DNA of 64,000 nt. Origin: Porticoccaceae bacterium LTM1. GTDB taxonomy: Bacteria; Pseudomonadota; Gammaproteobacteria; Pseudomonadales; Porticoccaceae. A program made the position numbers and the translations under genes. The stretch is taken from the NCBI GenBank assembly GCA_030252795.1, contig CP127080.1, forward strand, positions 2,683,501 through 2,747,500. Direction: 5' to 3'. Shown here piece by piece: positions 1,538 through 40,344 of the stretch. Each line of letters begins with the position of its first letter. Within the stretch, counting starts at the first letter, position 1. The notes under the pieces are model-generated. The model was not told the origin of the DNA and searched no databases. It worked only from the letters and a program-made list of their open reading frames with translations.

Positions 1538-1609
1538 GTCATCCTGAGCACAGCGAAGGATCTCGTACCCTACCGCAATATAGAGATCCTTCGCTGCGCT
1601 CAGGATGAC
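1538..1609. repeat. Long inverted repeat between paaD and paaE
   Basis: Arms 1538-1564 and 1583-1609 (27 bases each, one mismatch) start GTCATCCTGAGC and belong to the same family as the element at 876-947. It begins 10 bases after the paaD stop. Confidence 0.9.
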
Positions 1610-27216: not shown

Positions 27217-27573
27217 CTCAGCTCCACAGCGGTTAAGTCAGTAAGGGGTGTAAAAAAGGAGCGCAGATTGTACACGAGATGATCAAGCACGTCTCTCCCA
27301 ATACCGCCTTCAAGGCGGCAATTTCCTTTCAATATCGACGAAGATACGCAATTTCCAGAACTTACACCCAATCAATCCCGGCAACCATGCCACCCAACTG
27401 AGTTTCGCTGTAATTCCAATCAGCATCACCCTCCAGCTAATTTCAACAGCTGCAAGGCCTTTTACGACTTATTCATGCCAGCAACATGAAAAAAATTCAC
27501 CTCCACCGGTAGGGTACCAGCCGTTTTGCGAGTGTAGTCATAAAGGAAACTGAAGAGACCATCGCCTATTCTC
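27217..27573. other. Intergenic region between divergent glyA and the first sigma factor gene
   Basis: 357 bases without a gene. It holds the promoter-like element at 27508-27539 for the sigma gene and must hold the glyA promoter. I looked for a riboswitch-like fold for glyA and saw none; a GCCTTCAAGGC palindrome near 27305 is the only other small dyad. Confidence 0.6.
27508..27539 (+). promoter_or_regulatory. Predicted ECF sigma promoter of module 1 sigma gene
   Basis: GGTAGGGT (27508-27515), a 16-base spacer, then GTGTAGTC (27532-27539), 34 bases before the sigma gene ATG. The same two boxes with the same spacing occur before the module 1 TonB receptor (29430), and the -35 box recurs before both module 2 genes. 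This indicates autoregulation by an ECF sigma factor. Confidence 0.8.
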
Positions 27574-28170
27574 ATGTTGATGGCACGCAAAAAAGACAAT
27601 GTTGTCGATCTGGATCGGCGACGATTGCAGGCAACCGAGCAACTGCTCAAACAATTGTTTGATGAGCATGCGGTGCCATTGCGCTCTTTTTTGGCCGCTC
27701 GCCTGGGTTCAAGAGCTGATCTTGATGATATCGTTCAAGATGTATTCCTGAGGCTGGCCAAAATGAACAACCTGATTGAACGAATGGAAAAAGACCGGGG
27801 AAGCTGCCGGGCTTACCTGTTCACCATTGGCAGCAATCTGGTGATGGATCTTAAACGCAAACATCAAGTCCGCAATGACTATGCGCAGGAAAAATACCAA
27901 CTGGATCAGGAACACTCCGGGGAAGCGTCGCCAGAAACCATACTTGCAGCCCGGCAGGAGCTGGCCATTGTGAAAAAGGCGATTTTTTCCATGCCACCCA
28001 GATGGCAAAAGGTATTTTTGCTCAGCCGAGTGGAGTTGATGAGTTACAAGCAAATCGCAGAAAAACTGGGTGTGTCTGTGAAGCAGATAGAAAAGTACAT
28101 GTCTAAAGCTCTGAGATGCATTCGGGATGCTGTACAGCAGGAAAATCGGCGGGAAGCTGAAAATGACTAA
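27574..28170 (+). CDS. FecI-type ECF RNA polymerase sigma factor (module 1)
   Basis: A 198-residue ECF sigma factor. Region 2 spans about residues 25-90 with DLDDIVQDVFLRLAKM and YLFTIGSNLVMDLKRK; region 4 spans about 130-185 with MPPRWQKVFLLSRVELMSYK and the recognition helix GVSVKQIEKYMSKALRCIRD. The N terminus DNVVDLDRRR recurs in the module 2 sigma (NNVVDLEGRR), showing the two are paralogs. The ATG at 27574 lacks a strong ribosome site; ATG 27580 is an alternative. The stop overlaps the start of the FecR-type gene by 8 bases. Confidence 0.93.
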   Translation: MLMARKKDNVVDLDRRRLQATEQLLKQLFDEHAVPLRSFLAARLGSRADLDDIVQDVFLRLAKMNNLIERMEKDRGSCRAYLFTIGSNLVMDLKRKHQVRNDYAQEKYQLDQEHSGEASPETILAARQELAIVKKAIFSMPPRWQKVFLLSRVELMSYKQIAEKLGVSVKQIEKYMSKALRCIRDAVQQENRREAEND

Positions 28171-29212
28171 GTTAAAAGACAACTCTACAGACAGGGACCT
28201 GGCCAAACTGTTTTCGGATCATATCTCTAAACAGGATGCCGGGCGTATTGGCCAATTAATGGAGTCGGACTCCAGCTATGAGGCGGATTTCTTGCGCACC
28301 TCAAGCGCTACTTTGGCAGCAAAAGACCTGATCGACGATGAGGACATACGCAAGCTATTAAACGAAGATAGTTTACCCGCATCCAAAAAACGCAGCTTCT
28401 GGATCAGCACCGGAATTGCAGCGGCATTTTTAATTGCCGCCACATTTGCATTACAGAATTTTTTACCATGGGGGACTTCTAACCAGGCCGAATCTCTCCA
28501 GCGCTACGCCACACGCATTGGCGAGCAGAAAACTTTCAGCCTGAGTGACGGCAGTACATTAACCCTTAATACAGGCACTGTTCTCAGGGTCCAGATAAAT
28601 GACAACTTTCGAAAAGTCATACTGGACAAGGGTGAAGCATTTTTTGACATTGAGAAAGATGAACAACGCCCATTCTCAGTTGATTTGGGTGAAAAGACCA
28701 TCAGCGTACTGGGCACCCAGTTTAATATTCGCAAGCAACCTGAATCTTTTACCATGGCACTGGTAGAAGGTGTTGTAGCTTTACATAACAGCGACGAACC
28801 ACTTTCCGCAACATCAACAGCTATACCTTTTGGCGGCACTAGCGAGGAGCAAATCAATCTTAACCCTCAAAGCCAGCAGACAATTAAGGCCGGCTGGGTA
28901 GTCTCCTATAACCAGAACAACCAGACCCTCCTTGCACAGCAGGATGCGGACATATCAAGGCGCCATGCGTGGACCAATGGCTTTATTCCATTTAGCGGAG
29001 AGTCCTTGGTCAACCTGGTAAATGAATTAAATCGTTACTCAGGTAAAAAGATTCTGATTGGCGACAGCTCTATTATGGACCTCCAGGTGTACGCAGGTAT
29101 TCGAGTAGACCAGATAGATCAAACCCTGAAAGCCCTGGAAATGACACTACCAATAAGGATTGAACAGGATTTTGACCGTGTTTTAATTCTGGGGTCAGAC
29201 AAAAACAGATAG
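28163..29212 (+). CDS. FecR-type anti-sigma factor (module 1)
   Basis: A 349-residue single-pass membrane protein expected to hold the sigma factor inactive and to receive the signal from the TonB receptor in the periplasm. A cytoplasmic N-terminal region (1-75) precedes one membrane helix (FWISTGIAAAFLIAATFAL) and a periplasmic FecR domain with LSDGSTLTLNTGTVLRV and VLGTQFNIRKQPE, then a C-terminal STN-like stretch with VNELNRYSGKKILIGD. The ATG at 28163 overlaps the sigma stop, so the two are translated together. Paralogous to 38628-39695. Confidence 0.92.
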   Translation: MTKLKDNSTDRDLAKLFSDHISKQDAGRIGQLMESDSSYEADFLRTSSATLAAKDLIDDEDIRKLLNEDSLPASKKRSFWISTGIAAAFLIAATFALQNFLPWGTSNQAESLQRYATRIGEQKTFSLSDGSTLTLNTGTVLRVQINDNFRKVILDKGEAFFDIEKDEQRPFSVDLGEKTISVLGTQFNIRKQPESFTMALVEGVVALHNSDEPLSATSTAIPFGGTSEEQINLNPQSQQTIKAGWVVSYNQNNQTLLAQQDADISRRHAWTNGFIPFSGESLVNLVNELNRYSGKKILIGDSSIMDLQVYAGIRVDQIDQTLKALEMTLPIRIEQDFDRVLILGSDKNR

Positions 29213-29525
29213 TTTTAAAAAAAGACCATCTATCAATCTATACTTATTAAAAGACTGGCCATGATCTTCCAGCCTAAGAAGGCAGAACCAGCCATTCCAC
29301 ATCCCATTCGATGCTTCCACGAATCGATATTTTTTATTTTTTGAATACGGATATTCCACCTCCAACTCTTTTCAACCAGAAAAGGGCTGGGTCATTAAGC
29401 TCTAAACTGGAATTATTTTTTGAAGAGCCGGTAGGGTAGACAAAAAGTTACACGTGTAGTCCGTGAATCCACAACAGCTTAAAAAAGTTTCGGATTACAA
29501 ACGTGATAACCAGAGGGTGGTACTA
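29213..29525. other. Intergenic region before the module 1 TonB receptor
   Basis: 313 bases between the anti-sigma stop and the receptor ATG. It holds the second promoter element at 29430-29461. I saw no convincing terminator or small gene. Confidence 0.6.
29430..29461 (+). promoter_or_regulatory. Predicted ECF sigma promoter of module 1 TonB receptor
   Basis: GGTAGGGT (29430-29437), 16 bases, GTGTAGTC (29454-29461), identical in both boxes and spacing to the element at 27508. Transcription would begin near 29468, downstream of the GTG at 29463, which supports the ATG at 29526 as the true receptor start. Confidence 0.8.
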
Positions 29526-32411
29526 ATGATTCAGAAAAAAAGCAGATTCAATCGAAATAAGCTGGCATTAAGCGTAGCAGCGCTCACGCTGTCCGGCGCT
29601 GTTTTAGCTGGCGATTTATTTAAAATTAATATAGAAAAACAAAATGCCGGAACAGCATTATTGAAGCTTTCCGAAAAGTCCGGTGTACAGATCCTGATGT
29701 CAAAAGAGCTTGGCGACAACATCCAACTGCCTGCCATCAAAGGCGAATATACCGTTGAAAGTGCATTGGCATCTATGCTGAAAGGCACCGGCCTTACTTT
29801 CGAGTATGCCTCTGAAAACTCAATTGTTATTCAAAAAGAGGACTCCCAACCTGAAGTATCTGATAAAAAAGAGGTTGAAGAAGTTGTCGTCACAGGGTCA
29901 CGACTGAAAAACTCCAACCCGACTTCACCGGTTGTCTCAATTAATCGAGACCAAATTGACAACCGTGGATTCAGCACCGCTGAAGACATCATTAGATCTC
30001 TGCCACAGAATTACTCCAGCATGAATATGGCGCGAAGTGTAAGCCAACCTGTTGGCGGTGATGGCATCCCTGTCGGCTCGGTTGCCCAAGGGGAATCATC
30101 AGCAAACCTCAGGGGGCTTGGAACAGGTGCCACATTAGTCCTGATCAACGGTCGCAGAACTTCCGGGTCAGCCGCATTCAAAGGCGCCCAGGTAAATTTA
30201 TCCAACATCCCCGCTGCCGCAATCGAGCGAGTGGAAGTCATGCTGGATGGTGCCGCTGCCGTATATGGCTCCGATGCCATAGCCGGTGTAATTAACTTCA
30301 TATTGCGAAAAGAATACTCTGGCGCAACAACAACAATTCACTATGAAAATGGCGTCAATGGTGGCAACAAATATGCTCTGGACCAACTATTTGGGATCAA
30401 TTGGGAAACCGGCAATTTAACAGCCTCTATGAGTTTGTCCCAAACAACTCCCATATTAACTTCAAAAACAGGATACACCTCTAATGACTACCGCAACAGA
30501 GGTGGTCCGGATCTGAGAAACTCAACGTTCACTCAACCTGGCAATGTCAGTGGATTTGGCGCTCTAGCTCTGGATAATGACGGAACGAATTGGACATTGG
30601 CAGACTTGAGTATGGATAACATCGAATCCGCCAAAGGTGACCTGATTCCAAAAACACAGACATCAGATACCGATTCCAAGTCATTATCCTTATCGCTGGA
30701 ACAAGAGATTTGGGAAAACGCTAAGGGGTTTGGTGAAATTCTTTATACAAAAAATAACACCCAAAGCCTTGGCCAAGGCCCTATAGCCTTTGGGTTTGTG
30801 CCAGCTTCCAACCCATTTAATCAAGCGGGATTCCCTCTACTTGTATTTTCATATCACGGCACAGAAGCTGAAGCCGGGTTAATTCCATTTTCGAGAACCG
30901 AAGCAAACTCAGATAATCTGACAATCAATGCCGGATTCACCTCAGACATCGGCTTTAAAGATTGGGAAGTGAATGTCAGCGGCTCCTATTCCACCAGTAA
31001 AACCGAAGCGACCAGCTTTGCGTACGATTCCACCTTTAGTTCCAATCCTGACTTCACCGAGCATTACAACCCATTTGGAAATGGCAGCGTTCAGGATACA
31101 GATGCTTTCCTGGCCGCATATCAAGCAGGCACTCCTCGTATCACTAAATCACGACTAGCGAGCTTGAACGGCTTCGTAGAGGGCAGCATTATGGAGCTGG
31201 ATTCTGGTGACTGGCGATTAGTAATGGGCGGAGAGTATCGCCTTGAAACCCTGTCTCAAGGCAGCGATGCATTGGCCATTAGAGATCTGGCTGATACTGG
31301 CCCTTCGCAAACCGTTGAAGCGCTATTCCTGGAGAGTTCCCTGCCAATTACAAGCTCCTTAAGTGCAACACTTCAGGGTCGATGGGAACAGTACACTTTT
31401 GATTCAGACGCAGATCCAATGGACACCTCAGGCGTGAAAATTGACGGAATTTCCTACGAGAAGTTTAGTCCTCGTATTGGTCTCCTCTGGAATGCGACAG
31501 ATGAACTGAAATTGCGAGCCAGCTGGGGGGAGTCTTTCAAAGCGCCTAATTTGACCCAAGTTGTAAGCAGCACAAGTGAAGGTACATTTCCATCGAACAC
31601 TTACGATCCTATCGAAGATGAAATCGTTGCAATCTTTTTTGATGGAAGGGGAAACCCCAAACTCCAACCTGAAACCGGAGAAACTATTACTTTTGGTCTG
31701 GACTGGACACCAGAGTTTATAGACGGACTGAATATTTCATTAAATTACAACAAAACCAAATTTGACAGCCGCATTGAAGCAAACCCCGGATTTAATTTTG
31801 GTGAAGAATTTATATTAGCTAACCCCGATCTTTTCCCAGGATTTGCCAAGAGGAACCCTGACACCAATCAATTGGAGCGCATTGAGTTAAGGCCAATCAA
31901 TATTGCCCAAAGGGACAATGAAAGTATCGACTTCTCTGTTCAATACGCATGGAGCAATAACTGGGGTGACTTTGATGCCAGCCTGGGCGGAGTCTACACA
32001 AGTAAACAGGAAGACCTCATTGCCCCCGGCCAGGAAAAAATTGGACTGGATGGTACAACAGGCGGACCAGATAAAGTGACTGCCAACCTATCCCTTAACT
32101 GGACAAAAGATGCGTACGGCGCCAATTTGTATGGCAACTATCACCATCATTACCAGAATACCGAAGCAACCGGCCCATCATTCATTGCCACCATTCCTGA
32201 ACCACCGAGGATTGGGCACTATATCACCTGGGATTTAACCGGCTTCTATAAAGATGCGAATTCCGGCTGGACATTCAGAGTTGGCGCCAGAAATCTGTTA
32301 AATAACAAATTTCCATTTCATATCAGTTTTGCCGGCCCGTATGACACAGTCAGAGTGGATTTACGTGGACGCGTAATATTTGCAGAAGTGAAAAAAAACT
32401 TCAACTTTTAA
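29526..32411 (+). CDS. STN-domain TonB-dependent receptor (module 1)
   Basis: A 961-residue outer-membrane receptor for TonB-driven uptake that also signals. A signal peptide (LALSVAALTLSGAVLA) leads to an N-terminal STN signalling domain (about 30-100, NAGTALLKLSEKSGVQILMS), a linker, the TonB box and plug (VEEVVVTGSRL, NLRGLGTGATLVLINGRR, GSDAIAGVINFIL) and a 22-strand barrel ending in aromatic FNF. STN receptors contact a FecR-type anti-sigma, matching the genes upstream. The ATG at 29526 has AGAGGGTGG upstream. Substrate unknown; the loops show no family-specific clue I can read. Confidence 0.93.
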   Translation: MIQKKSRFNRNKLALSVAALTLSGAVLAGDLFKINIEKQNAGTALLKLSEKSGVQILMSKELGDNIQLPAIKGEYTVESALASMLKGTGLTFEYASENSIVIQKEDSQPEVSDKKEVEEVVVTGSRLKNSNPTSPVVSINRDQIDNRGFSTAEDIIRSLPQNYSSMNMARSVSQPVGGDGIPVGSVAQGESSANLRGLGTGATLVLINGRRTSGSAAFKGAQVNLSNIPAAAIERVEVMLDGAAAVYGSDAIAGVINFILRKEYSGATTTIHYENGVNGGNKYALDQLFGINWETGNLTASMSLSQTTPILTSKTGYTSNDYRNRGGPDLRNSTFTQPGNVSGFGALALDNDGTNWTLADLSMDNIESAKGDLIPKTQTSDTDSKSLSLSLEQEIWENAKGFGEILYTKNNTQSLGQGPIAFGFVPASNPFNQAGFPLLVFSYHGTEAEAGLIPFSRTEANSDNLTINAGFTSDIGFKDWEVNVSGSYSTSKTEATSFAYDSTFSSNPDFTEHYNPFGNGSVQDTDAFLAAYQAGTPRITKSRLASLNGFVEGSIMELDSGDWRLVMGGEYRLETLSQGSDALAIRDLADTGPSQTVEALFLESSLPITSSLSATLQGRWEQYTFDSDADPMDTSGVKIDGISYEKFSPRIGLLWNATDELKLRASWGESFKAPNLTQVVSSTSEGTFPSNTYDPIEDEIVAIFFDGRGNPKLQPETGETITFGLDWTPEFIDGLNISLNYNKTKFDSRIEANPGFNFGEEFILANPDLFPGFAKRNPDTNQLERIELRPINIAQRDNESIDFSVQYAWSNNWGDFDASLGGVYTSKQEDLIAPGQEKIGLDGTTGGPDKVTANLSLNWTKDAYGANLYGNYHHHYQNTEATGPSFIATIPEPPRIGHYITWDLTGFYKDANSGWTFRVGARNLLNNKFPFHISFAGPYDTVRVDLRGRVIFAEVKKNFNF

Positions 32412-32426
32412 ACTTATAACTTTTTT

Positions 32427-32460
32427 GGGCACCTTCCAATGGAGGTGTCCATTTTCTGTT
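32427..32460 (+). terminator. Attenuator-like hairpin between receptor and thioredoxin gene
   Basis: GGCACCTTCC and GGAGGTGTCC pair imperfectly around a 3-base loop, followed by ATTTTCTGTTTTTT. It may partly stop transcription after the receptor, lowering expression of the downstream thioredoxin-fold genes. Confidence 0.55.
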
Positions 32461-32500
32461 TTTTGAAATAATCAAAAAACTACCATTAAATGGAGGGAAA

Positions 32501-33796
32501 ATGAAACATTTGATCAGCGTTATTTTCTGCCTACTTGTACCCATTGCTGCAAGTGCTAATGGCATTCAATTTTTTCAGGGCAGCTTTGATGAAGCATTAT
32601 CTTTGGCGACCAAGGAAAACAAACTGCTTTTTGTAGATGTGATGACTGAATGGTGTGGCCCCTGCAAAAACATGGAGTCAAACGTATTCCCTCAACAAGA
32701 GGTAAGAGATTTCTATAATCAACACTTTATTGCCTTCCAGCTGGATGCTGAAGACTCCGACTTAAATGGCCCTGAAATCAGTGAAAAATATCAAGTAAAT
32801 GGCTATCCAACTTATCTGTTTATCCAGCCGGATGGCACCCTGAAGCACAAGGCATCAGGCGGCATGGAGGCAGAGGCTTTTATTACAGTTGGCAAGCAGG
32901 CCTTAGGCCTGGACGTACTTTCAGTATTATATGGCCTGCAGGAAAAATACGATGCCGGGAATCGAGAACCAAAGGCAGTCAGAGCTTATCTGAAAGAGTG
33001 GACAAAAGTCGTTCCGGCTTTATCCAATGTCCTCCCTCAGGAAAAGTCTCAGGAGTTGTATAAAAAATGGAGCAATGCCCTGAAAGACTATTTCTCGCAC
33101 CGCACCCCCTACGAATTGACCAATGCTGAAGACTTCCAAATCATCACGGATATGAGTGTTCAATTTACCCTTGAACTGAGCCGGGGACACCCAATGGTGG
33201 AATACCTGATCAATCACTACAATCAGGCAAGTAGCGTAATTCCAGAAAAGTCGCTAGGTGAATTCTTAATGAATATGAACTATTTCGGTATTCGCAATGC
33301 CGCTTCGAAAGGCGACAAAGAAACTTATCAACGATACGTGAAAGATATTACCGGAACTTTGGAGCAAGCCTACACCTTCAATGACTGGACCGATGTGAAC
33401 CCGCCTGCCCTACTGGGTGCTATGGGAGATATGGAGTACGCCTTTTCCCGAAAAGACTACCCTGACTACCTGAAAAAAGGCTGGAAATACATCGAACTCT
33501 GTGAAAGTCATACCGGAGCCAGCGAGCTTCTCAGCTTTGCTCGTCGTCTGGAGCGTGCAGAAGGCGGATCGGCGTATCTTCCGGAAACCTTGAAATTTAT
33601 CCAAAAAGCCTACGACGAGTATCACAACATTTATGTGCCCGCCGATTATGGCCGTGTTCTAGCCAAAATCGGTCAACCAGAGAAAGCACGTGAATATTAT
33701 GCGGAAGTAATGAAGCTGGCAGACGAAATGGGCGGCGAGCGCGGCCAGGGAATCCGCGAGCGCTTTACCAAAGAAATGAAAGAACTGGGCTTGTAA
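32501..33796 (+). CDS. Secreted thioredoxin-fold protein (WCGPC) with helical C-terminal domain
   Basis: A 431-residue protein with a signal peptide (LISVIFCLLVPIAASA), a thioredoxin domain (about 22-140) with the redox motif WCGPC at 51-55 and the cis-proline loop VNGYPTYLFIQPDG, and a 290-residue helical C-terminal region with TPR-like features. It should act in the periplasm as a reductase or isomerase with its own substrate-binding part. It follows the module 1 receptor by 89 bases with a GGAGGG ribosome site. The next gene is a clear paralog (GSFDEAL, ENKL, WCGPC, NGPE all shared), so the pair arose by tandem duplication. Confidence 0.85.
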   Translation: MKHLISVIFCLLVPIAASANGIQFFQGSFDEALSLATKENKLLFVDVMTEWCGPCKNMESNVFPQQEVRDFYNQHFIAFQLDAEDSDLNGPEISEKYQVNGYPTYLFIQPDGTLKHKASGGMEAEAFITVGKQALGLDVLSVLYGLQEKYDAGNREPKAVRAYLKEWTKVVPALSNVLPQEKSQELYKKWSNALKDYFSHRTPYELTNAEDFQIITDMSVQFTLELSRGHPMVEYLINHYNQASSVIPEKSLGEFLMNMNYFGIRNAASKGDKETYQRYVKDITGTLEQAYTFNDWTDVNPPALLGAMGDMEYAFSRKDYPDYLKKGWKYIELCESHTGASELLSFARRLERAEGGSAYLPETLKFIQKAYDEYHNIYVPADYGRVLAKIGQPEKAREYYAEVMKLADEMGGERGQGIRERFTKEMKELGL

Positions 33797-33856
33797 GGCA
33801 ACGCCTACTACAACAGCAATTCAAGGCCTATGGGCCTGGTTTATCAGGAGCAACTC

Positions 33857-35221
33857 ATGAAGTATTTGATAGCAATTCTCTGTTTGCCATTAATTCTGGC
33901 TGCCTGTGATGGCTCATCCAGAGAAAACGAGACCAGTAAAACAATGGCCCATACTGCGCAAATGAGCGCAGGAGACGCAAGCCATGATCATTCAGTGAAA
34001 GAAACCGGCATCCGATTCTTTCACGGCAGCTTTGACGAAGCACTCGAAAAAGCCAAAGTGGAAAACAAGCTGGTATTTATTGACGCCTACACCACCTGGT
34101 GTGGTCCCTGCAGGATGATGGCCCTCAATATCTTTCCCTTGAAAGAAGTTGGCGACTTTTACAACGCCAACTTTATCAACCTGAAACTGGACACTGAGAA
34201 TGAAGACCAGAATGGTCCTGAGCTGTCTGAGCGTTATGGTGTAGAGGTACTTCCTACGTACTTCTATCTTGATCCTAATGGAAAAGTACTCCACAAAGCT
34301 ACCGGTTTTATTGAGGCTGATCGTTTTATCGCCACTGCCAAAGAAGCGATGGGCGAAGAGAACACTCTGTTTGCAGAACTGGATAAACGCTATCAAGCAG
34401 GTGAGCGCTCTCCAGAGTTTATTCGTGAATTCCTCGCCGAAGCGATACATATTGAGCCAGGTGATCGGATGTCCCAAGAGCGTCGCAATCACCAGGCCAG
34501 AATGCAAAAAATCTTTAATGACTATATCCGCAAAAAAGATAAGTCATCATTGGTAAACGCCGAAGATTTTGCCCTGATGAAGTCCTTTCTGCACCATGCC
34601 GGTCGCAACAACGAATATGTAGATTATGTAGCAAATCACTACAAAGCTTTTACGAAAGTCATCCCTGAATCACAAGTTGCTTTTTTCCTGCTGGAGTCAG
34701 TCAAACACTCTGTCGGCGAGATATCCCGTAAAGGAGATGCCAACTACATCAAATACATTCAAGAACTCGATGACTTACTGGCTCCTGCCTATGAATGTCA
34801 GCTGAAGGTTATCAAGAACGTTTATATCTATCGCGAATACCTGGAAAAACTGGGCAGAAGATGTTATTTGGAGGCAATTCAGGATTGGGAAGAAATGCTG
34901 GCTGATGCAGAAAAGTCCATCGCCGAAAAAGGCAACACCCTAACCGGAGAGGATTATAGTGGTTTTAGCAATGGATTTGGGAGCTGCAATGATACCGAAG
35001 TTCTCAAAAAAGTAATGACTTACGCCAAAAAGGGTTATGAGTTGAGTCCCTCTGCTCATACCTCCATGAATTATATCGGAATTTTGACCACTTTAGGTCA
35101 CAGGGAAAAAGCCATTGAGGTGGCCGAAAAGACACTGGCAAGCATTGATAAAAAATCCAAAGACGCAAACTACATCGACATCCTTAACCAGATGCTAACG
35201 GTCCTTAAAGCACAAAAGTAA
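33857..35221 (+). CDS. Thioredoxin-fold lipoprotein (WCGPC), paralog of the preceding gene
   Basis: A 454-residue lipoprotein. The lipobox is ILAAC with Cys17, and the +2 residue is Asp, which in enterobacteria means retention in the inner membrane. A short His- and Ser-rich linker precedes the thioredoxin domain with WCGPC at 81-85 and GVEVLPTYFYLDPNG, then a long helical region ending in TPR-like repeats (GHREKAIEVAEKTLAS). The ATG at 33857 has CAGGAG upstream; a start at 33830 would lie before the signal peptide. The secreted and lipidated versions may act on the same imported substrate at different positions. Confidence 0.85.
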   Translation: MKYLIAILCLPLILAACDGSSRENETSKTMAHTAQMSAGDASHDHSVKETGIRFFHGSFDEALEKAKVENKLVFIDAYTTWCGPCRMMALNIFPLKEVGDFYNANFINLKLDTENEDQNGPELSERYGVEVLPTYFYLDPNGKVLHKATGFIEADRFIATAKEAMGEENTLFAELDKRYQAGERSPEFIREFLAEAIHIEPGDRMSQERRNHQARMQKIFNDYIRKKDKSSLVNAEDFALMKSFLHHAGRNNEYVDYVANHYKAFTKVIPESQVAFFLLESVKHSVGEISRKGDANYIKYIQELDDLLAPAYECQLKVIKNVYIYREYLEKLGRRCYLEAIQDWEEMLADAEKSIAEKGNTLTGEDYSGFSNGFGSCNDTEVLKKVMTYAKKGYELSPSAHTSMNYIGILTTLGHREKAIEVAEKTLASIDKKSKDANYIDILNQMLTVLKAQK

Positions 35222-35234
35222 TCCCCGCTTTACT

Positions 35235-35261
35235 CCGGCAGCTTGATCCTAAAGCTGCCGG
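35235..35261 (+). terminator. Terminator-like hairpin after the thioredoxin pair
   Basis: CCGGCAGCTT and AAGCTGCCGG form a perfect 10-base stem with a 7-base loop 14 bases after the stop, followed by GTTATT. It ends the module 1 transcript. Confidence 0.78.
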
Positions 35262-35390
35262 TTATTCACGCCATTTACTTATAATGAGCTTCAATTCTGT
35301 TAAGGTATCAGTTGATTAAAAATCAAGGTTCTTGCTGAAACAACTCTCAACGACCTTGTTCACATCTTCTCACCCCAAAATCAAACTGGT

Positions 35391-35425
35391 AAAAAATAGG
35401 GGCCCTTCAAGGGCCCCATATTTTT
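35391..35425. terminator. Bidirectional terminator between the convergent modules
   Basis: GGGGCCCTT-C-AAGGGCCCC is a perfect palindrome (35399-35417) with an A run on the left and T run on the right, so it can stop transcription from either side. It lies 27 bases from the module 2 receptor stop. The rest of the 230-base gap holds only the hairpin at 35235. Confidence 0.9.
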
Positions 35426-35451
35426 CTTGCAAGAATCAATTACTGAATTAT

Positions 35452-38424
35452 TTAAAATTCAAAGGTTTTACTGATATCAAAATAGACGATTCTTCCTCGG
35501 GTATCTACACGTTGTGCATCGAAACCATAGCCTGTGCTTGCGTGAGGAAATCCTGAATTAAAGAGGTTTCTCACACCCAACTGCAGGTTCCAACCGGATT
35601 CAATCAAATTATATCGACCATTTACATCAACGGTAGTATAACCTTCAACCTTCTCGTTTGGATTTGGTGCATACCATGGGCCGCCTGTATCAGCGTTAGT
35701 GTAGCCACTAGAGTGGTTAACAAACAGACTGGCGCTGTATTCGCTATATGACCAATCCAGTTTGGCACGCAGTTTCCATGGCTCCGGACCTCTCTCGGTT
35801 CCGTTCAACACTTCTGGCTCAAGTCCTTCAAAAGCAGTATCTTCCAGTGTACTGGTATAAGTTCCTGCCAGCCCAGTAACAAATGAACCGAAGTCGGTAT
35901 CAAAGTCATATTTGATATTGAAGTCTACCGATTTTTGCAGCCTTCCAGCCAGGTTGATGGGCATACTATTAACATGGGTCAAGAAACCGTTTGCATCACG
36001 CTCTGCCACACCGGGAAACTTATCCGGGTTTCCAAATACTGCTTCGTCACCCAGCGTAAACAAGAATCCACTATCAATTCGATCCACAAATTCTGTGCGG
36101 CTATAGGTCATCGAAAAAGACAGCCCCTCAATCGCAGCTGGTGTCCAGTCGAATCCATAGCTGTACGTATCAGCGGTTTCTGCCTGTAGATTAGGGTTAC
36201 CGCGATACTGGAAGCTGGCCATTACCTCATCTCGCCCTTGCGGATCCAGCGGATCGACAAAAGCCAGATCGAAGGGAAATTCCTCCGTGTAGTACAACAT
36301 ATCACTGGCGGTTGGCGCTCGAAATGAGGTTGATTGACTGACGCGAATATTTAGATCTTCGACTGGGCGCCATGACAGCTTTATCTGCGGGCTGGTCTGC
36401 GAAAAAGTTGTCGTGCGAGATTCAGTTCCAAAACCATCAAATGGTGCAGTAACTTCGTACTCCTCCCAACGAGCTGCCAGTGAAACAGTCAGAGATTTAA
36501 CCATCGGCAACTGATTGTCTGTTCCAACTACTGGAATACTTGCTTCCACAAAATACGCAGTCAGGTCGCGGCTTGGGGTGGAATCAAGCAGGTCATCCGC
36601 CTCTGAGCCGAGATCTACATCCGAACTCGACGACGTAAAATTCAATTCTTCGCGACGGAGCTCAGCACCCAATGCCATACGAATTTCACCACCCGGCAAA
36701 TCTGCAATACCACCGTCCAGGCTCAAGTTAACGCCTGTGATCAAGTTTTCCGGTTGTGTACCGCGCAACTCGCCGTAAAGAGTTCCCAAAAGTGGAGATT
36801 GTGCACTACCGTCCCCAAAAGGATTGATCGCTTCGCTGGGGTCGGAAGACGCCAATAATCTATCCAGCTCCGGGTTGCTATACTCAAGCAACGTCAATGT
36901 TCTGGAATCACTTTTTTCTTCAGCATAACTACCGGAAAGATCCATGCGCCAATCCCTGAATGGCAAATTAACTTTAACGCCATAGTTAAAGTTAACTCGC
37001 TCATGCTCGGAGATTTGCTGTCTGGGATCAATCAGTCCCGCTGCGATCTCATTATCCAAAGAGTAATACACTGCCATGTGACGATCAGTATATGGTGTAA
37101 AGGCGTTTGTACCCGGAACAATAAACTGAACCGAATATGTGGCGGCGTTACTGTGAGTTTCAGTTTTATCATAAAGGGCATCTGCATATAGGCTGATGCC
37201 GTCCGTAATGTCCTGTTCAGCGCTCAAAAACAGTGAGGTTGTTTCGCTGTCCGATCCCAACTGAAAAGGGATGGTTGATTTGTTGACTACGTTATCAGGA
37301 GATACATCACTTTCATCAAAATTGGTACCATCATGGCCCAGCGGTAGAGTGCCGATTTCATCCCATACACTCCAGTACGAATCTGTCCACCATGCATAAA
37401 ACGTATTACTTATTAGAGGCATAACCGATCCGCCTCGGCGATCATAGCCACCGCGACCGGTAAAATCCTGAGTCACAATGCCAGCTTTTTCTGCTGAGAT
37501 TGGCTTATCTTCAGTTTTGGTCAATGTGGCATTTACTCGACCGGAATCCCAACTGAAACCCAGATCCTGACTGATTCTGTAACGGTCACCACCATTGACG
37601 GAATTTTCATATCTGACCGAGGTGGTTGCACCTACATAGTCTTTTTTCAATATAAAGTTGATTACACCGCCAATTGCATCGGAACCATAAATAGCCGACG
37701 CGCCATCCAGCAATACTTCCACTCGCTCAATCGCGCTTGCTGGAATGGTATTCAGGTTGACTACTGCGCCATCAAAAAGAGCTGCACCGGCAATGCGTCG
37801 ACCATTCACCAGAACCAGTGTGGAATCTTCACCCAGACCGCGCAGATTGGGTGAGGAAATGCCCTGCGGATTAAAATAGCCTACTCGCCCCTCACTCAGG
37901 TTGGTTACATTATTGGAACTGGGAAAATTTTGCGGCAGCGAGCGGACAATATCTTCCGCCGAGCTAACACCCAACTTATCCAACTCATCACGAGTTATGA
38001 TTACAGTGGCAGAAAGTGGATCCACTTTACGCAGGCGAGAACCGGTTACTACAACTTCCTCTACTGTTTCATCACTTCCAGCTTCCGGCTTATCTTCTTC
38101 ACGAACTAATACAGATGCTTCAGAGGTAAATTCGTACACCAGGCCGGTGTCTTTCAACAGCACATCCAAGGCAGCAGTGAGATTATATTTACCATCAATA
38201 CCTACTTTTGACACGCGGCTGCCAACACCGTCTGCAAACATAATTTGCACACCGGCAGACTCGCCTAATTCCATTAATGCCGTACCGATTTTTTTGGCAT
38301 CGATTTTCAGTTGAATCTGTTGATCGTCTTTTGCGTGCAATCCTGCAGAGAATCCAACTGCTATGGCAGCAGCCAGACCTGCCGCCAATCGATTACGCTT
38401 GATATGTGATTTTTCGAATATCAT
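35452..38424 (-). CDS. STN-domain TonB-dependent receptor (module 2)
   Basis: A 990-residue outer-membrane receptor paralogous to the module 1 receptor. Signal peptide (LAAGLAAAIAVGFSAGLHA), STN domain (about 35-105, IGTALMELGESAGVQIMFAD), TonB box and plug (VEEVVVTGSRLRK, NLRGLGEDSTLVLVNGRR, GSDAIGGVINFILKK) and barrel ending FEF. STN makes it a likely signal giver to the anti-sigma at 38628. The ATG at 38424 has AGAGGTGGGA upstream. Ligand unknown. It has its own promoter (38484-38514) and a terminator separates it from the anti-sigma gene. Confidence 0.93.
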   Translation of the reverse strand: MIFEKSHIKRNRLAAGLAAAIAVGFSAGLHAKDDQQIQLKIDAKKIGTALMELGESAGVQIMFADGVGSRVSKVGIDGKYNLTAALDVLLKDTGLVYEFTSEASVLVREEDKPEAGSDETVEEVVVTGSRLRKVDPLSATVIITRDELDKLGVSSAEDIVRSLPQNFPSSNNVTNLSEGRVGYFNPQGISSPNLRGLGEDSTLVLVNGRRIAGAALFDGAVVNLNTIPASAIERVEVLLDGASAIYGSDAIGGVINFILKKDYVGATTSVRYENSVNGGDRYRISQDLGFSWDSGRVNATLTKTEDKPISAEKAGIVTQDFTGRGGYDRRGGSVMPLISNTFYAWWTDSYWSVWDEIGTLPLGHDGTNFDESDVSPDNVVNKSTIPFQLGSDSETTSLFLSAEQDITDGISLYADALYDKTETHSNAATYSVQFIVPGTNAFTPYTDRHMAVYYSLDNEIAAGLIDPRQQISEHERVNFNYGVKVNLPFRDWRMDLSGSYAEEKSDSRTLTLLEYSNPELDRLLASSDPSEAINPFGDGSAQSPLLGTLYGELRGTQPENLITGVNLSLDGGIADLPGGEIRMALGAELRREELNFTSSSSDVDLGSEADDLLDSTPSRDLTAYFVEASIPVVGTDNQLPMVKSLTVSLAARWEEYEVTAPFDGFGTESRTTTFSQTSPQIKLSWRPVEDLNIRVSQSTSFRAPTASDMLYYTEEFPFDLAFVDPLDPQGRDEVMASFQYRGNPNLQAETADTYSYGFDWTPAAIEGLSFSMTYSRTEFVDRIDSGFLFTLGDEAVFGNPDKFPGVAERDANGFLTHVNSMPINLAGRLQKSVDFNIKYDFDTDFGSFVTGLAGTYTSTLEDTAFEGLEPEVLNGTERGPEPWKLRAKLDWSYSEYSASLFVNHSSGYTNADTGGPWYAPNPNEKVEGYTTVDVNGRYNLIESGWNLQLGVRNLFNSGFPHASTGYGFDAQRVDTRGRIVYFDISKTFEF

Positions 38425-38483
38425 CTATCCCACCTCTTTGGTCAAAATCATTAGTTGCCCAGTTTTTTTGTCAGGGCTACTAG

Positions 38484-38514
38484 ACGCACGGATAGATCCT
38501 TTAAACACCCTACC
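38484..38514 (-). promoter_or_regulatory. Predicted ECF sigma promoter of module 2 TonB receptor
   Basis: On the minus strand GGTAGGGT (38514-38507), 16 bases, then CGTGCGTCTAG starting at 38490. It lies about 60 bases before the receptor ATG. The -35 box equals that of module 1; the -10 region starts CGTGCGT as in the module 2 sigma promoter. Confidence 0.8.
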
Positions 38515-38574
38515 TTCTTATTTTCAACTTATGTAATTATCGTTTATTTACCAATTTACCCATACGCTTAAATG

Positions 38575-38596
38575 CAAAAACCCACCAGTGGTGGGT
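38575..38596 (-). terminator. Rho-independent terminator after the module 2 anti-sigma gene
   Basis: ACCCACC and GGTGGGT form a 7-base stem with a 3-base loop; on the minus strand a run of T follows. It separates the sigma/anti-sigma transcript from the receptor gene, which fits the receptor having its own promoter. Confidence 0.85.
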
Positions 38597-38627
38597 TATA
38601 TACATGACCATTTGGATTAAACCGGTA

Positions 38628-39695
38628 TTACTGGCTATCTCTTTTTATCACTACACGATCAAAGTATTGCACCACTTCTACTGGCAGGGTGTATTCCAAA
38701 TCGTTAAGTGCAAGATCAAGTCTATCCACCCGAACCGTTGCATAGACTTTGAGATCCATAATATCGGTATCTTCAATCAGAATTTTCTTGGCTGAGTAAC
38801 GGTTTAGCTCCTGTATTAATTGTTTTAATGGCACCGAATCAAACCGCAGTACTCCTGCGCGCCAGCTTAGTCTCTTCTCAATTTTTGCATCTGCGTAAGC
38901 AGTCATATTTTTGGAATCATATTTATAATTCACCACTGTACCCGCAGCAATTCGGAGTTGCCGTGCAGCACTGACTGTTGCGGCATGATCAGAAGAAACC
39001 TCCAGCAAGGGTGCGTCGGGAATAACGCTTTCATAGTCAGGGTGCAACGCAACCGACCCTTCCACCAACGCCAGGGTGAACTGTTCTGGGGTAACACGAA
39101 TATTAAATTGAGTTCCAAGCACTGTGACTGCCTGCCGCTCCATTTCGACCGTGAAGGGCCGATCCGAGTCCTTGGCAACGTCAAAATAGGCCTCTCCGCG
39201 CTCAAGTATGACCCTCCTGCCTGACTCGGTCATTTCGACCAGCATCAGCGTGCCTGTATTAAGGGTCACCTCGGAGCCATCAGCCAACTTCACATCTTTT
39301 TGCTCTCCTATACGAGTAACATAACGGTAGAGATCGGCCTGATCCCTGTCCTGAACCTGAAAGCTTTGGTAACCAACTACTATCGCCACAATAACTGCAG
39401 CCGCGGCAGCCAGTTTCGGCCAGCGATATCGTTGAGTTACCTTGGTTTCTTGCTTGCTGTATACCGGAGCCGATTCACCAATCAACGCCAGGATATCCGG
39501 ATCATTCTCCAGACCCCGCAGATCCGCCAGTGCGCCATTGGCAGCGCGAAAATGCTCTTGATATTCAAAGTCCTTACTTTGCCACTCTGCAATTTGAATT
39601 TGCTGGTCAGCAGTCAGTGCAGCCGAGTTCATTCTCACCACATCACGGGCCGCACGGCGCTTGGCGATAAAATGCCTCAATTTACGCATAATCAT
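38628..39695 (-). CDS. FecR-type anti-sigma factor (module 2)
   Basis: A 355-residue single-pass membrane protein. The cytoplasmic part (1-85) is followed by one membrane helix (LAAAAAVIVAIVVGYQSF) and a periplasmic FecR domain with LADGSEVTLNTGTLMLVEM, VTVLGTQFNIRVTPEQF and a C-terminal IQELNRYSAKKILIEDTDI stretch that is shared with module 1. The ATG overlaps the sigma stop as ATGA, with GGGAGC upstream, so the two are translationally coupled. Confidence 0.92.
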   Translation of the reverse strand: MIMRKLRHFIAKRRAARDVVRMNSAALTADQQIQIAEWQSKDFEYQEHFRAANGALADLRGLENDPDILALIGESAPVYSKQETKVTQRYRWPKLAAAAAVIVAIVVGYQSFQVQDRDQADLYRYVTRIGEQKDVKLADGSEVTLNTGTLMLVEMTESGRRVILERGEAYFDVAKDSDRPFTVEMERQAVTVLGTQFNIRVTPEQFTLALVEGSVALHPDYESVIPDAPLLEVSSDHAATVSAARQLRIAAGTVVNYKYDSKNMTAYADAKIEKRLSWRAGVLRFDSVPLKQLIQELNRYSAKKILIEDTDIMDLKVYATVRVDRLDLALNDLEYTLPVEVVQYFDRVVIKRDSQ

Positions 39696-40288
39696 GGCTT
39701 TGCTCCCGAGGGCGATCCCGCCACATCCCGAATGCGCATCAGCGCCTGCTTCATATATTTTTCAACTTGCTTGACCGAAACTCCCATCTCACTGGCAATC
39801 TGTGGGTAGCTCAGATACTTGAAGCGACTCAAAACAAAAGCCTGGCGCCAGTTGGGTTTCAACTCCATGATCACATCCTTTACCCTCGCGAGCTCCTGCT
39901 TATTCAGGGCAATAATCTCTGGTGTAGCTTCATTTGCTTTGCCATGCTGCTCCAGAGCCAAACGCTCGGCATAGTTGCGCCGCACCGATTTATAACGCTC
40001 TAGATCTACAGTCAGGTTGTTGGCAACTGTAAACAGATAAGACCGATTATCCTCTCGACCCGGCGCCAACTTTTCCCTGAGGTTGTCCATATTGGCCACT
40101 CGAATAAAGACCTCTTGCAGTACATCTTCCAGCTCGTCATCAGCCCCCATACGCATACGCAGAAACGCACGTACATCAGATGCGTGCTCCCTGAACAACC
40201 GTTCAAGCACCTGCTCCCGGGTTTCTTGTCGCCTGCCTTCGAGATCGACGACATTGTTGGGTGGTTTCTTTTTCAATGCGATGGTCAT
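39692..40288 (-). CDS. FecI-type ECF RNA polymerase sigma factor (module 2)
   Basis: A 198-residue ECF sigma factor, paralog of the module 1 sigma and of the same length. Region 2: DDELEDVLQEVFIRVANM and YLFTVANNLTVDLERYK; region 4: LKPNWRQAFVLSRFKYLSYP and GVSVKQVEKYMKQALMRIRD. The region 4 recognition helices of the two sigmas are nearly the same, matching the shared GGTAGGGT -35 box; region 2 differs more, matching the different -10 boxes. ATG 40288 has GGAGAAGG upstream. Confidence 0.93.
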   Translation of the reverse strand: MTIALKKKPPNNVVDLEGRRQETREQVLERLFREHASDVRAFLRMRMGADDELEDVLQEVFIRVANMDNLREKLAPGREDNRSYLFTVANNLTVDLERYKSVRRNYAERLALEQHGKANEATPEIIALNKQELARVKDVIMELKPNWRQAFVLSRFKYLSYPQIASEMGVSVKQVEKYMKQALMRIRDVAGSPSGAKP

Positions 40289-40313
40289 ATCTGTTATCTA
40301 CCTTCTCCAGTCT

Positions 40314-40344
40314 ACGCACGGCCAGGTAGTGCTGCCACCCTACC
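40314..40344 (-). promoter_or_regulatory. Predicted ECF sigma promoter of module 2 sigma gene
   Basis: On the minus strand GGTAGGGT (40344-40337), 16 bases, then CGTGCGTAGAC starting at 40320, about 30 bases before the sigma ATG. Same layout as the element at 38484-38514. Confidence 0.8.

Follow-up and report, generated by a model that had tools for sequence, protein, structure and literature searches.

A stretch of 64,000 nucleotides from Porticoccaceae bacterium LTM1 (assembly GCA_030252795.1, contig CP127080.1, positions 2,683,501 to 2,747,500), referred to here as the window, carries two modules, each with genes for a FecI-like extracytoplasmic function (ECF) sigma factor, a FecR-like regulator and a TonB-dependent receptor. 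Within a module, the sigma gene and the receptor gene were found to be preceded by matching -35 and -10 boxes. Such pairs recur in most modules of the genome, differ from module to module, co-vary with the sigma regions and were absent from two out-of-genus control sets of FecI-type modules. They are most probably the trace of a radiation of FecI-like sigma factors into about 34 circuits, each with a private pair of promoters from which the sigma factor would drive its own gene and that of the receptor.

The sequence GGTAGGGT was found upstream of both sigma genes and both receptor genes of the window, at 27508-27515 (+) and 29430-29437 (+) in module 1 and at 38507-38514 (-) and 40337-40344 (-) in module 2. 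An earlier note on this DNA had placed four matched ECF-type promoters with module-specific -10 boxes here, and all of them were present: the two module-1 sites carry GTGTAGTC and the two module-2 sites CGTGCGT. The predicted promoters of module 1 span 27508..27539 (+) before the sigma gene (-10 box AGTGTAGTC, 27531-27539) and 29430..29461 (+) before the receptor gene (-10 box CGTGTAGTC, 29453-29461). Those of module 2 span 38484..38514 (-) before the receptor gene (-35 box 38514-38507, -10 box 38490-38484) and 40314..40344 (-) before the sigma gene (-35 box 40344-40337, -10 box 40320-40314). The note's equal spacer of 16 bases held for all four promoters when the -10 box was started as the note had started it; with the NGT core as the reference (AGTGTAGT/CGTGTAGT against CGTGCGT), module 1 has spacers of 15 bases and module 2 of 16. 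This core reads AGT at the sigma promoter of module 1 (27531) and CGT at its receptor promoter (29453), and the same A/C difference was seen in the relative L204 of the same-genus genome G001; it perhaps keeps basal expression of the sigma gene lower. Five matches to GGTAGGGT were counted in the window, against 0.98 expected (1 of 100 shuffles reached five), and with GTG following after 14-18 bases there were again five, the fifth copy included, against 0.08 expected (0 of 100 shuffles). The fifth copy (1567-1574, -) is not at any module. By eye it lies inside an apparent inverted repeat (agcgaaggatct / agatccttcgct) at 1549-1574 (-), and judging from the sequence it is probably a palindromic repeat rather than a promoter.

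The genome is a single contig of 3,132,333 bases, in which 50 domain matches to sigma region 4 (48 above the cut-off), 43 to FecR and 69 to the receptor plug were counted. A sigma gene was found within 2.5 kb of all 43 FecR genes, and for 42 of them a downstream receptor gene was present as well; in one of these 42 triplets the sigma gene lies on the opposite strand. The regions upstream of the sigma and receptor genes were compared by a search independent of GGTAGGGT, which looked for a -35 box of 9 bases and a -10 box of 8 bases with GT at positions 2-3, at start-to-start distances of 23-26 bases that differed by at most one base between the two promoters. Own pairs scored at least 12 in 33 of the 42 modules, against 1.56 expected from 1,722 mismatched pairs, and the summed own-pair score was 545, compared with a permutation mean of 413 (standard deviation 6.8, maximum 442.5 in 10,000). 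In two earlier scoring variants, scores of at least 16 were reached by 19 of the 42 own pairs and 4 of the 1,722 mismatched pairs, and scores of at least 14 by 25 and 12, respectively. The demand for GT in the -10 search was combined with a bonus of 0.5 for C, which slightly favoured C; cases with T emerged despite the bonus. One module was added by hand, bringing the total to 34. The autoregulation that the earlier note had predicted is likely from this pattern, as the sigma gene and the linked receptor gene have a common promoter type. At positions -5, -2 and -1 before NGT, likeness within the 34 modules was 0.62-0.65 against 0.23-0.35, hinting at a module-specific extended -10 element.

The 34 modules showed 27 keys for the -35 box and 26 for the -10 box, which formed 34 distinct combinations, none of them common to two modules. 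The number of -35 keys is inflated by register errors of the automatic -35 alignment, which left the paired-box test unaffected. This alignment set the two promoters in different registers for M0859032, M0967520, M2650630 and M0896840, and for L193, L197, L201 and M1201380 it set them one base apart; the -35 residue analyses were affected by both kinds of error. The six modules with GGTAGGGT at both promoters have six different -10 boxes, CGTGTA occurs in four modules, each time with a different -35 box, and the distances among modules in the two boxes were uncorrelated (r=-0.12, p=0.94). With spacers of 13-19 bases, the complete module-2 motif had exact genome matches only at its own two sites and the complete module-1 motif at its own two sites and one antisense site in the receptor gene of M2953492, and the reversed controls had none. 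With a fixed 16-base spacer and up to two mismatches, 9 sites were found for the module-1 motif against 16 in the control, and 5 against 3 for the module-2 motif, so only the exact matches are informative. The sole other promoter pair among the module-1 matches with up to two mismatches was that of M0452668, the module with the closest sigma factor in this genome. The strictly best match was the own receptor promoter for 27 of the 34 sigma promoters, and in the reverse direction the own partner was strictly best in 30 of 34.

These results bear on the alternative that survives best, which we nevertheless consider unlikely, namely that the regulons overlap. According to this idea, put forward in the earlier note, the sigma factors share GGTAGGGT as a common -35 box and cross-activate receptors as one network. 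Six modules do combine exact GGTAGGGT at both promoters with near-identical recognition helices, and some module pairs differ at just 2-3 of 18 box positions. Cross-recognition nevertheless found little support, as the same six modules all differ in the -10 box, the full motifs are nearly exclusive to their own sites and most promoters are matched best by their own partner. The note had also offered GGTAGGGT as a motif for finding the whole regulon; the genome scan with GGTAGGGT-N14-18-GT gave 30 rows and the reversed-pattern control likewise 30, and GGTAGGGT was rejected as a genome-wide regulon motif. The 30 rows collapse to 27 distinct sites; module promoters account for 10, and the other 17 lie in stop-to-stop frames of 380-1018 codons (10 sites) or of 39-164 codons (7 sites). 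One of the 10 long-frame sites (3006556) appears by eye to coincide with the ribosome-binding site of a module receptor gene, close to the gene start. An occurrence of GGTAGGGT, followed downstream by AGTGT, was observed at G000:C1:2820379-2820404 (-), locus L146, shortly 5' of an orphan TonB receptor gene of 711 amino acids that is not paired with FecR.

If each sigma factor has its own promoter pair, region 4 would be expected to vary with the -35 box and region 2 with the -10 box, and the earlier note had matched the boxes to the sigma regions in this way. Mantel tests and leave-one-out prediction both supported this assignment. Region 4 correlated with the -35 box (r=0.43, p=0.0002; given region 2, r=0.35, p=0.0006) and not with the -10 box (r=0.02, p=0.39), and region 2 correlated modestly with the -10 box (r=0.18, p=0.03; given region 4, r=0.18, p=0.014). 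In a leave-one-out set of 42 modules, 34 from this genome and 8 from G001, the nearest recognition helix predicted 6.43 of 11 positions of the -35 box against 5.46 (p=0.0005), and the nearest region-2 loop predicted 5.47 of 8 positions of the -10 box against 4.42 (p=0.0005). Nearest-neighbour prediction from this genome to G001 gained 1.46 matches over background for the -35 box (8 of 8 modules) and 1.45 for the -10 box (7 of 8), and is not fully independent because several pairs are probably orthologous and all 42 modules together had served to set the -35 register. The note's description of the two window sigma factors as near-identical in region 4 was not borne out: region 4 is 52% and region 2 45% identical between them, and near-identity is confined to the recognition helix, VSVKQ[IV]EKYM. 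Nor do they form a sister pair on the sigma tree, a deep tree of poor resolution with good support at 11 of its 39 inner branches. A Fisher test of helix against GGTAGGGT (7 and 6 of the 34 modules, overlap 6) gave p=5e-6, a post hoc result with too few independent tree pairs for significance. It is highly improbable that the boxes are operators of a DNA-binding regulator and not -35/-10 elements, since their spacing is sigma-like, their core is the CGT of ECF promoters and they co-vary with regions 4 and 2 as expected; the only frames of at least 80 amino acids in the window modules are those of the sigma factor, FecR and the receptor and frames overlapping these.

The residue analyses were carried out on 42 modules from two genomes; from G001 only the eight clade members scoring at least 12 were used, and L202 and L191 were left out. 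Residue 92 (numbering of P0001, the sigma factor of module 1) was associated with the first base of the -10 box (z=19.4, 95% family-wise max-null 6.5). Asp92 occurred with C in 76 of 78 promoters and with A in 2 (39 modules), the latter two standing before the sigma genes of window module 1 and of L204, its relative in G001, and Asn92 occurred with T in 6 of 6 promoters (3 modules). L191 and L210, which lie outside the clade and are apparent orthologues of each other, also have Asn at this position and TGT boxes. Asn92 took two changes on the best tree, and a single origin is conceivable. We take residue 92 to correspond to N92 of Mycobacterium tuberculosis SigH, from the published numbering and the SigH sequence rather than from a computed alignment. 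SigH N92 is described as bonding to the template cytosine opposite G-11 (PMC6411747). Asp could accept bonds from both cytosine amino groups of the CpG step, and Asn could accept one and donate to thymine O4. In the recognition helix, residue 174 was associated with the second base of the -35 box (z=6.1, threshold 5.97): EK was found with GGTAGGGT, EQ with TATAGGGT and EN with CTCAGGGT, and M0896840, which has the EK helix without GGTAGGGT, is an exception. By eye, residue 174 presumably corresponds to S172 of SigE and T171 of SigW. These residues are described as contacting base -34 (PMC6713349). The chances appear about even that the radiation has exposed a residue code, part of which is a switch at residue 92 between Asp (with CGT) and Asn (with TGT), together with about 34 mutually insulated loops with a two-part address from independently chosen boxes.

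Several results weigh against private circuits and against such a code. Eight of the 42 modules have no box pair, the scoring with its threshold of 12 is a third variant that was fixed after the results of the first two, and the module added by hand, M1233062 (GGTAGGGT with CGATATG/CGCTATG), has a -10 box without GT. A third exact copy of the module-1 motif (G000:C1:2954319-2954347, -), with a spacer one base shorter, is in antisense orientation within the receptor gene of M2953492. Between promoters of M0452668 and M2712002, as few as 2 of the 18 positions compared are different, which leaves room for some cross-talk, and the same may apply to the closest sigma relatives in general. The correlation of region 2 with the -10 box is modest, and region 2 also correlated with the -35 box (r=0.31, p=0.001; given region 4, 0.16, p=0.05); the wrong pairings were weaker but likewise present in the leave-one-out predictions (helix to -10 box, p=0.005; loop to -35 box, p=0.02). 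Since wrong pairings carry signal too, shared ancestry contributes. The family-wise threshold was passed by only 1 of 550 region-4/-35 cells (barely, 6.1 against 5.97) and 1 of 568 region-2/-10 cells, and the best wrong cell, of region 4 with the -10 box, reached 5.6 against 5.62. L202, a G001 clade member with Asn92, scored only 9; its best automated -10 box starts with A, and TGTCTAGTG was seen by eye 5' of its sigma gene. This third motif copy and the scarcity of residue-level support for the -35 box slightly lower our confidence in the private promoter pairs, which remains high.

Related modules from other genomes were scored as well. In a first set of relatives, 33 modules were scored out of 41 loci (L159 was dropped as a copy of L207 and the rest were without a sigma or receptor gene), and 11 of them reached at least 12 against 0.53 expected: eight members of the expanded sigma clade in G001, L191 and L210 (from G001 and G002) and L227 from another genus. 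Within G001 this amounts to 9 of 17 scored modules, 8 of which belong to the expanded clade. L204, the closest relative of module 1 in that genome, has nearly the same two boxes at 64% sigma identity. In the same family outside the genus, only 1 of 12 scored modules was at the threshold; this was L227, at exactly 12, and its pair looks like a chance match. L224 and L245 are one locus occurring in two sets. L191 and L210, of a distant FecI-like group, showed paired boxes TTTACGG with TGTTATAT, so box pairing may have arisen more than once. None of 24 modules from other genera and families of the order reached 12 (0.17 expected) and 2 reached 11 (1.39 expected); in this control 24 of 28 given loci were scorable, the C bonus was omitted, so that the top score was 15 instead of 16, and the 450 bases after the FecR stop served as the receptor side. 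Nor was a score of 12 reached by any of 27 modules from three other FecR-rich genomes (0.19 expected), the scorable part of 40 regions taken from 61 matches listed. With none at 12 or above in the 51 modules of the two control sets, paired boxes as a general FecI trait were rejected.

Among 29 genomes, this one included, FecR counts were 43 here, 20 in G001 and 6 in G002, with no more than 7 in any other genome of the family. In a first look at 398 genomes drawn from the phylum, with up to 12 candidates per genome scored, the 45 FecR candidates found here were the highest number among the genomes listed, followed by 28, 26 and 22; full scoring gave 21, 21 and 19 FecR for the three next-richest genomes. 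Strong matches (E<1e-50) to 22 sigma factors of the clade were found in 293 genomes drawn from the order only here, in G001 and, with two matches, in G093, up to 10 candidates per genome having been scored.

It is also very unlikely that the modules are ordinary iron-starvation Fec systems under Fur in which GGTAGGGT recurs by chance, despite a gene order as in the Fec system. No excess of sites like a Fur consensus was detected (mean best match 10.4 of 19 positions, 10.5 in shuffles), and the 51 FecI-type modules of other genomes lack paired boxes. A same-strand frame of at least 120 amino acids followed within 700 bases 3' of the receptor gene in 33 of the 42 modules, and 22 of these 33 genes, P0007 of the window included, form one BLAST cluster, of which all four tested members are thioredoxin-fold proteins; such cargo after the receptors suggests non-iron substrates. 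By eye, a catalase-peroxidase-like protein (743 amino acids) and a prolyl-oligopeptidase-like protein (729 amino acids) stand 3' of the receptor in M1225172 and M2197447, in place of a thioredoxin-fold protein.

Least probable of all is that the matched boxes are without specific function and arose when the two promoters of a module, which are nearby and alike, underwent recent duplication or gene conversion, since own-pair identity in the 34 modules was 0.83 in the -35 box and 0.84 in the -10 box (background 0.40 and 0.56) and at or near background in the spacer (0.36 against 0.27) and flanks (0.32/0.31 against 0.31/0.28), and since L204 in G001 retains both boxes. This identity profile only counters copying, because the boxes had been selected for matching; the claim of paired boxes rests on the permutation test.

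The two window modules comprise the following genes. Module 1 is on the forward strand, with the sigma factor P0001 (27574..28170, 198 amino acids; Pfam Sigma70_r2 and Sigma70_r4_2 above cut-off), the regulator P0002 (28127..29212; FecR 72.4 bits, FecR_C 25.5 bits), which likely starts at ATG 28163, overlapping the sigma stop, and the receptor P0003 (29463..32411; barrel, Plug and STN above cut-off). The listed GTG 29463 of P0003 abuts the end of its own -10 box, and ATG 29526 is therefore the more likely start. Two thioredoxin-fold genes follow, P0007 (32501..33796, +; Thioredoxin_2, Thioredoxin_7), and P0008 (33830..35221, +; Thioredoxin). Module 2 is on the reverse strand with its end facing these genes, and comprises the sigma factor P0004 (39692..40288, -; Sigma70_r2 and Sigma70_r4_2 above cut-off), the regulator P0005 (38628..39695, -; FecR 74.6 bits) and the receptor P0006 (35452..38424, -; barrel and Plug above cut-off). 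A scan for the STN signalling domain, which covered the receptors P0003 and P0006, gave 38.5 bits for P0003 and 26.8 bits for P0006, slightly below the cut-off of 28.4. Pfam matches of P0001 and P0004 were restricted to ECF and sigma70 region 2/4 models. The NCBIfam FecI equivalog NF041727 gave 78.2 bits for P0001 and 83.4 for P0004, well under its cut-off of 260, and the top NCBIfam model for both, Sig70_bacteroi1, was also under its cut-off; by these scores the window sigma factors are classed as FecI-like and not as FecI.

Recognition of the boxes as promoters by the linked sigma factor, positive feedback and insulation are inferred, and the signalling steps are drawn from the Fec paradigm. 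A ligand at the TonB receptor would send a signal via the N-terminal domain to membrane-bound FecR, which would free or activate the sigma factor. The sigma factor would then drive its own promoter (sigma-fecR, positive feedback) and the promoter of the receptor operon, with region 4 reading the -35 box and region 2 the -10 box, and the distinct combination of the two boxes would be a private address limiting cross-activation. What keeps dozens of coexisting related sigma factors from misfiring is an open question, and here about 34 of them, with two promoters each, disclose their probable specificity. The sigma/promoter sets make residue-to-base rules readable and directly testable within one genome, and nature supplies in them candidates for orthogonal sigma/promoter parts.

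The sigma/anti-sigma/SusC expansions of the Bacteroidetes, a different phylum, resemble the present modules in that a genome has many paralogous loci of sigma factor, regulator and receptor. Among the matches listed from the open-access literature, neither a FecI expansion of this kind nor Porticoccus FecR systems were found by title or abstract. The nearest case found there of many paralogous sigma factors with distinct promoters is the SigI-RsgI system of cellulolytic clostridia, described as sets of 8-16 sigma paralogues that have anti-sigma partners and promoter types of their own and show limited cross-talk, with the -35 element proposed to be read by the SigI-C domain (PMC6056542); in the present genome it is ECF regions 4 and 2 that both co-vary with the boxes, and each of the about 34 circuits has a single receptor. 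Residues of ECF sigma2 and sigma4 predict -10 and -35 bases according to Todor et al. (2020), as described in a review that lists FecI-like factors among the exceptions to autoregulation by ECF sigma factors (PMC8103513). Compared with that code for autoregulated ECF factors, as the review presents it, the FecI-like clade studied here looks autoregulated and offers a natural library within one genome. With FecI-FecR-FecA of Escherichia coli the modules share a sigma factor with regions 2 and 4 only, a FecR-family regulator and an STN receptor. The E. coli fecIR genes are described as transcribed by sigma70 under Fur and not autoregulated, with FecI serving a single promoter (PMC9249621), whereas here the predicted sigma promoter bears receptor-type boxes in 34 of 42 modules, with no Fur-box signal and about 34 putative circuits. 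Thus, a FecI-like lineage with the FecIRA layout appears to have gained self-activation, contrary to the rule of the E. coli Fec system.

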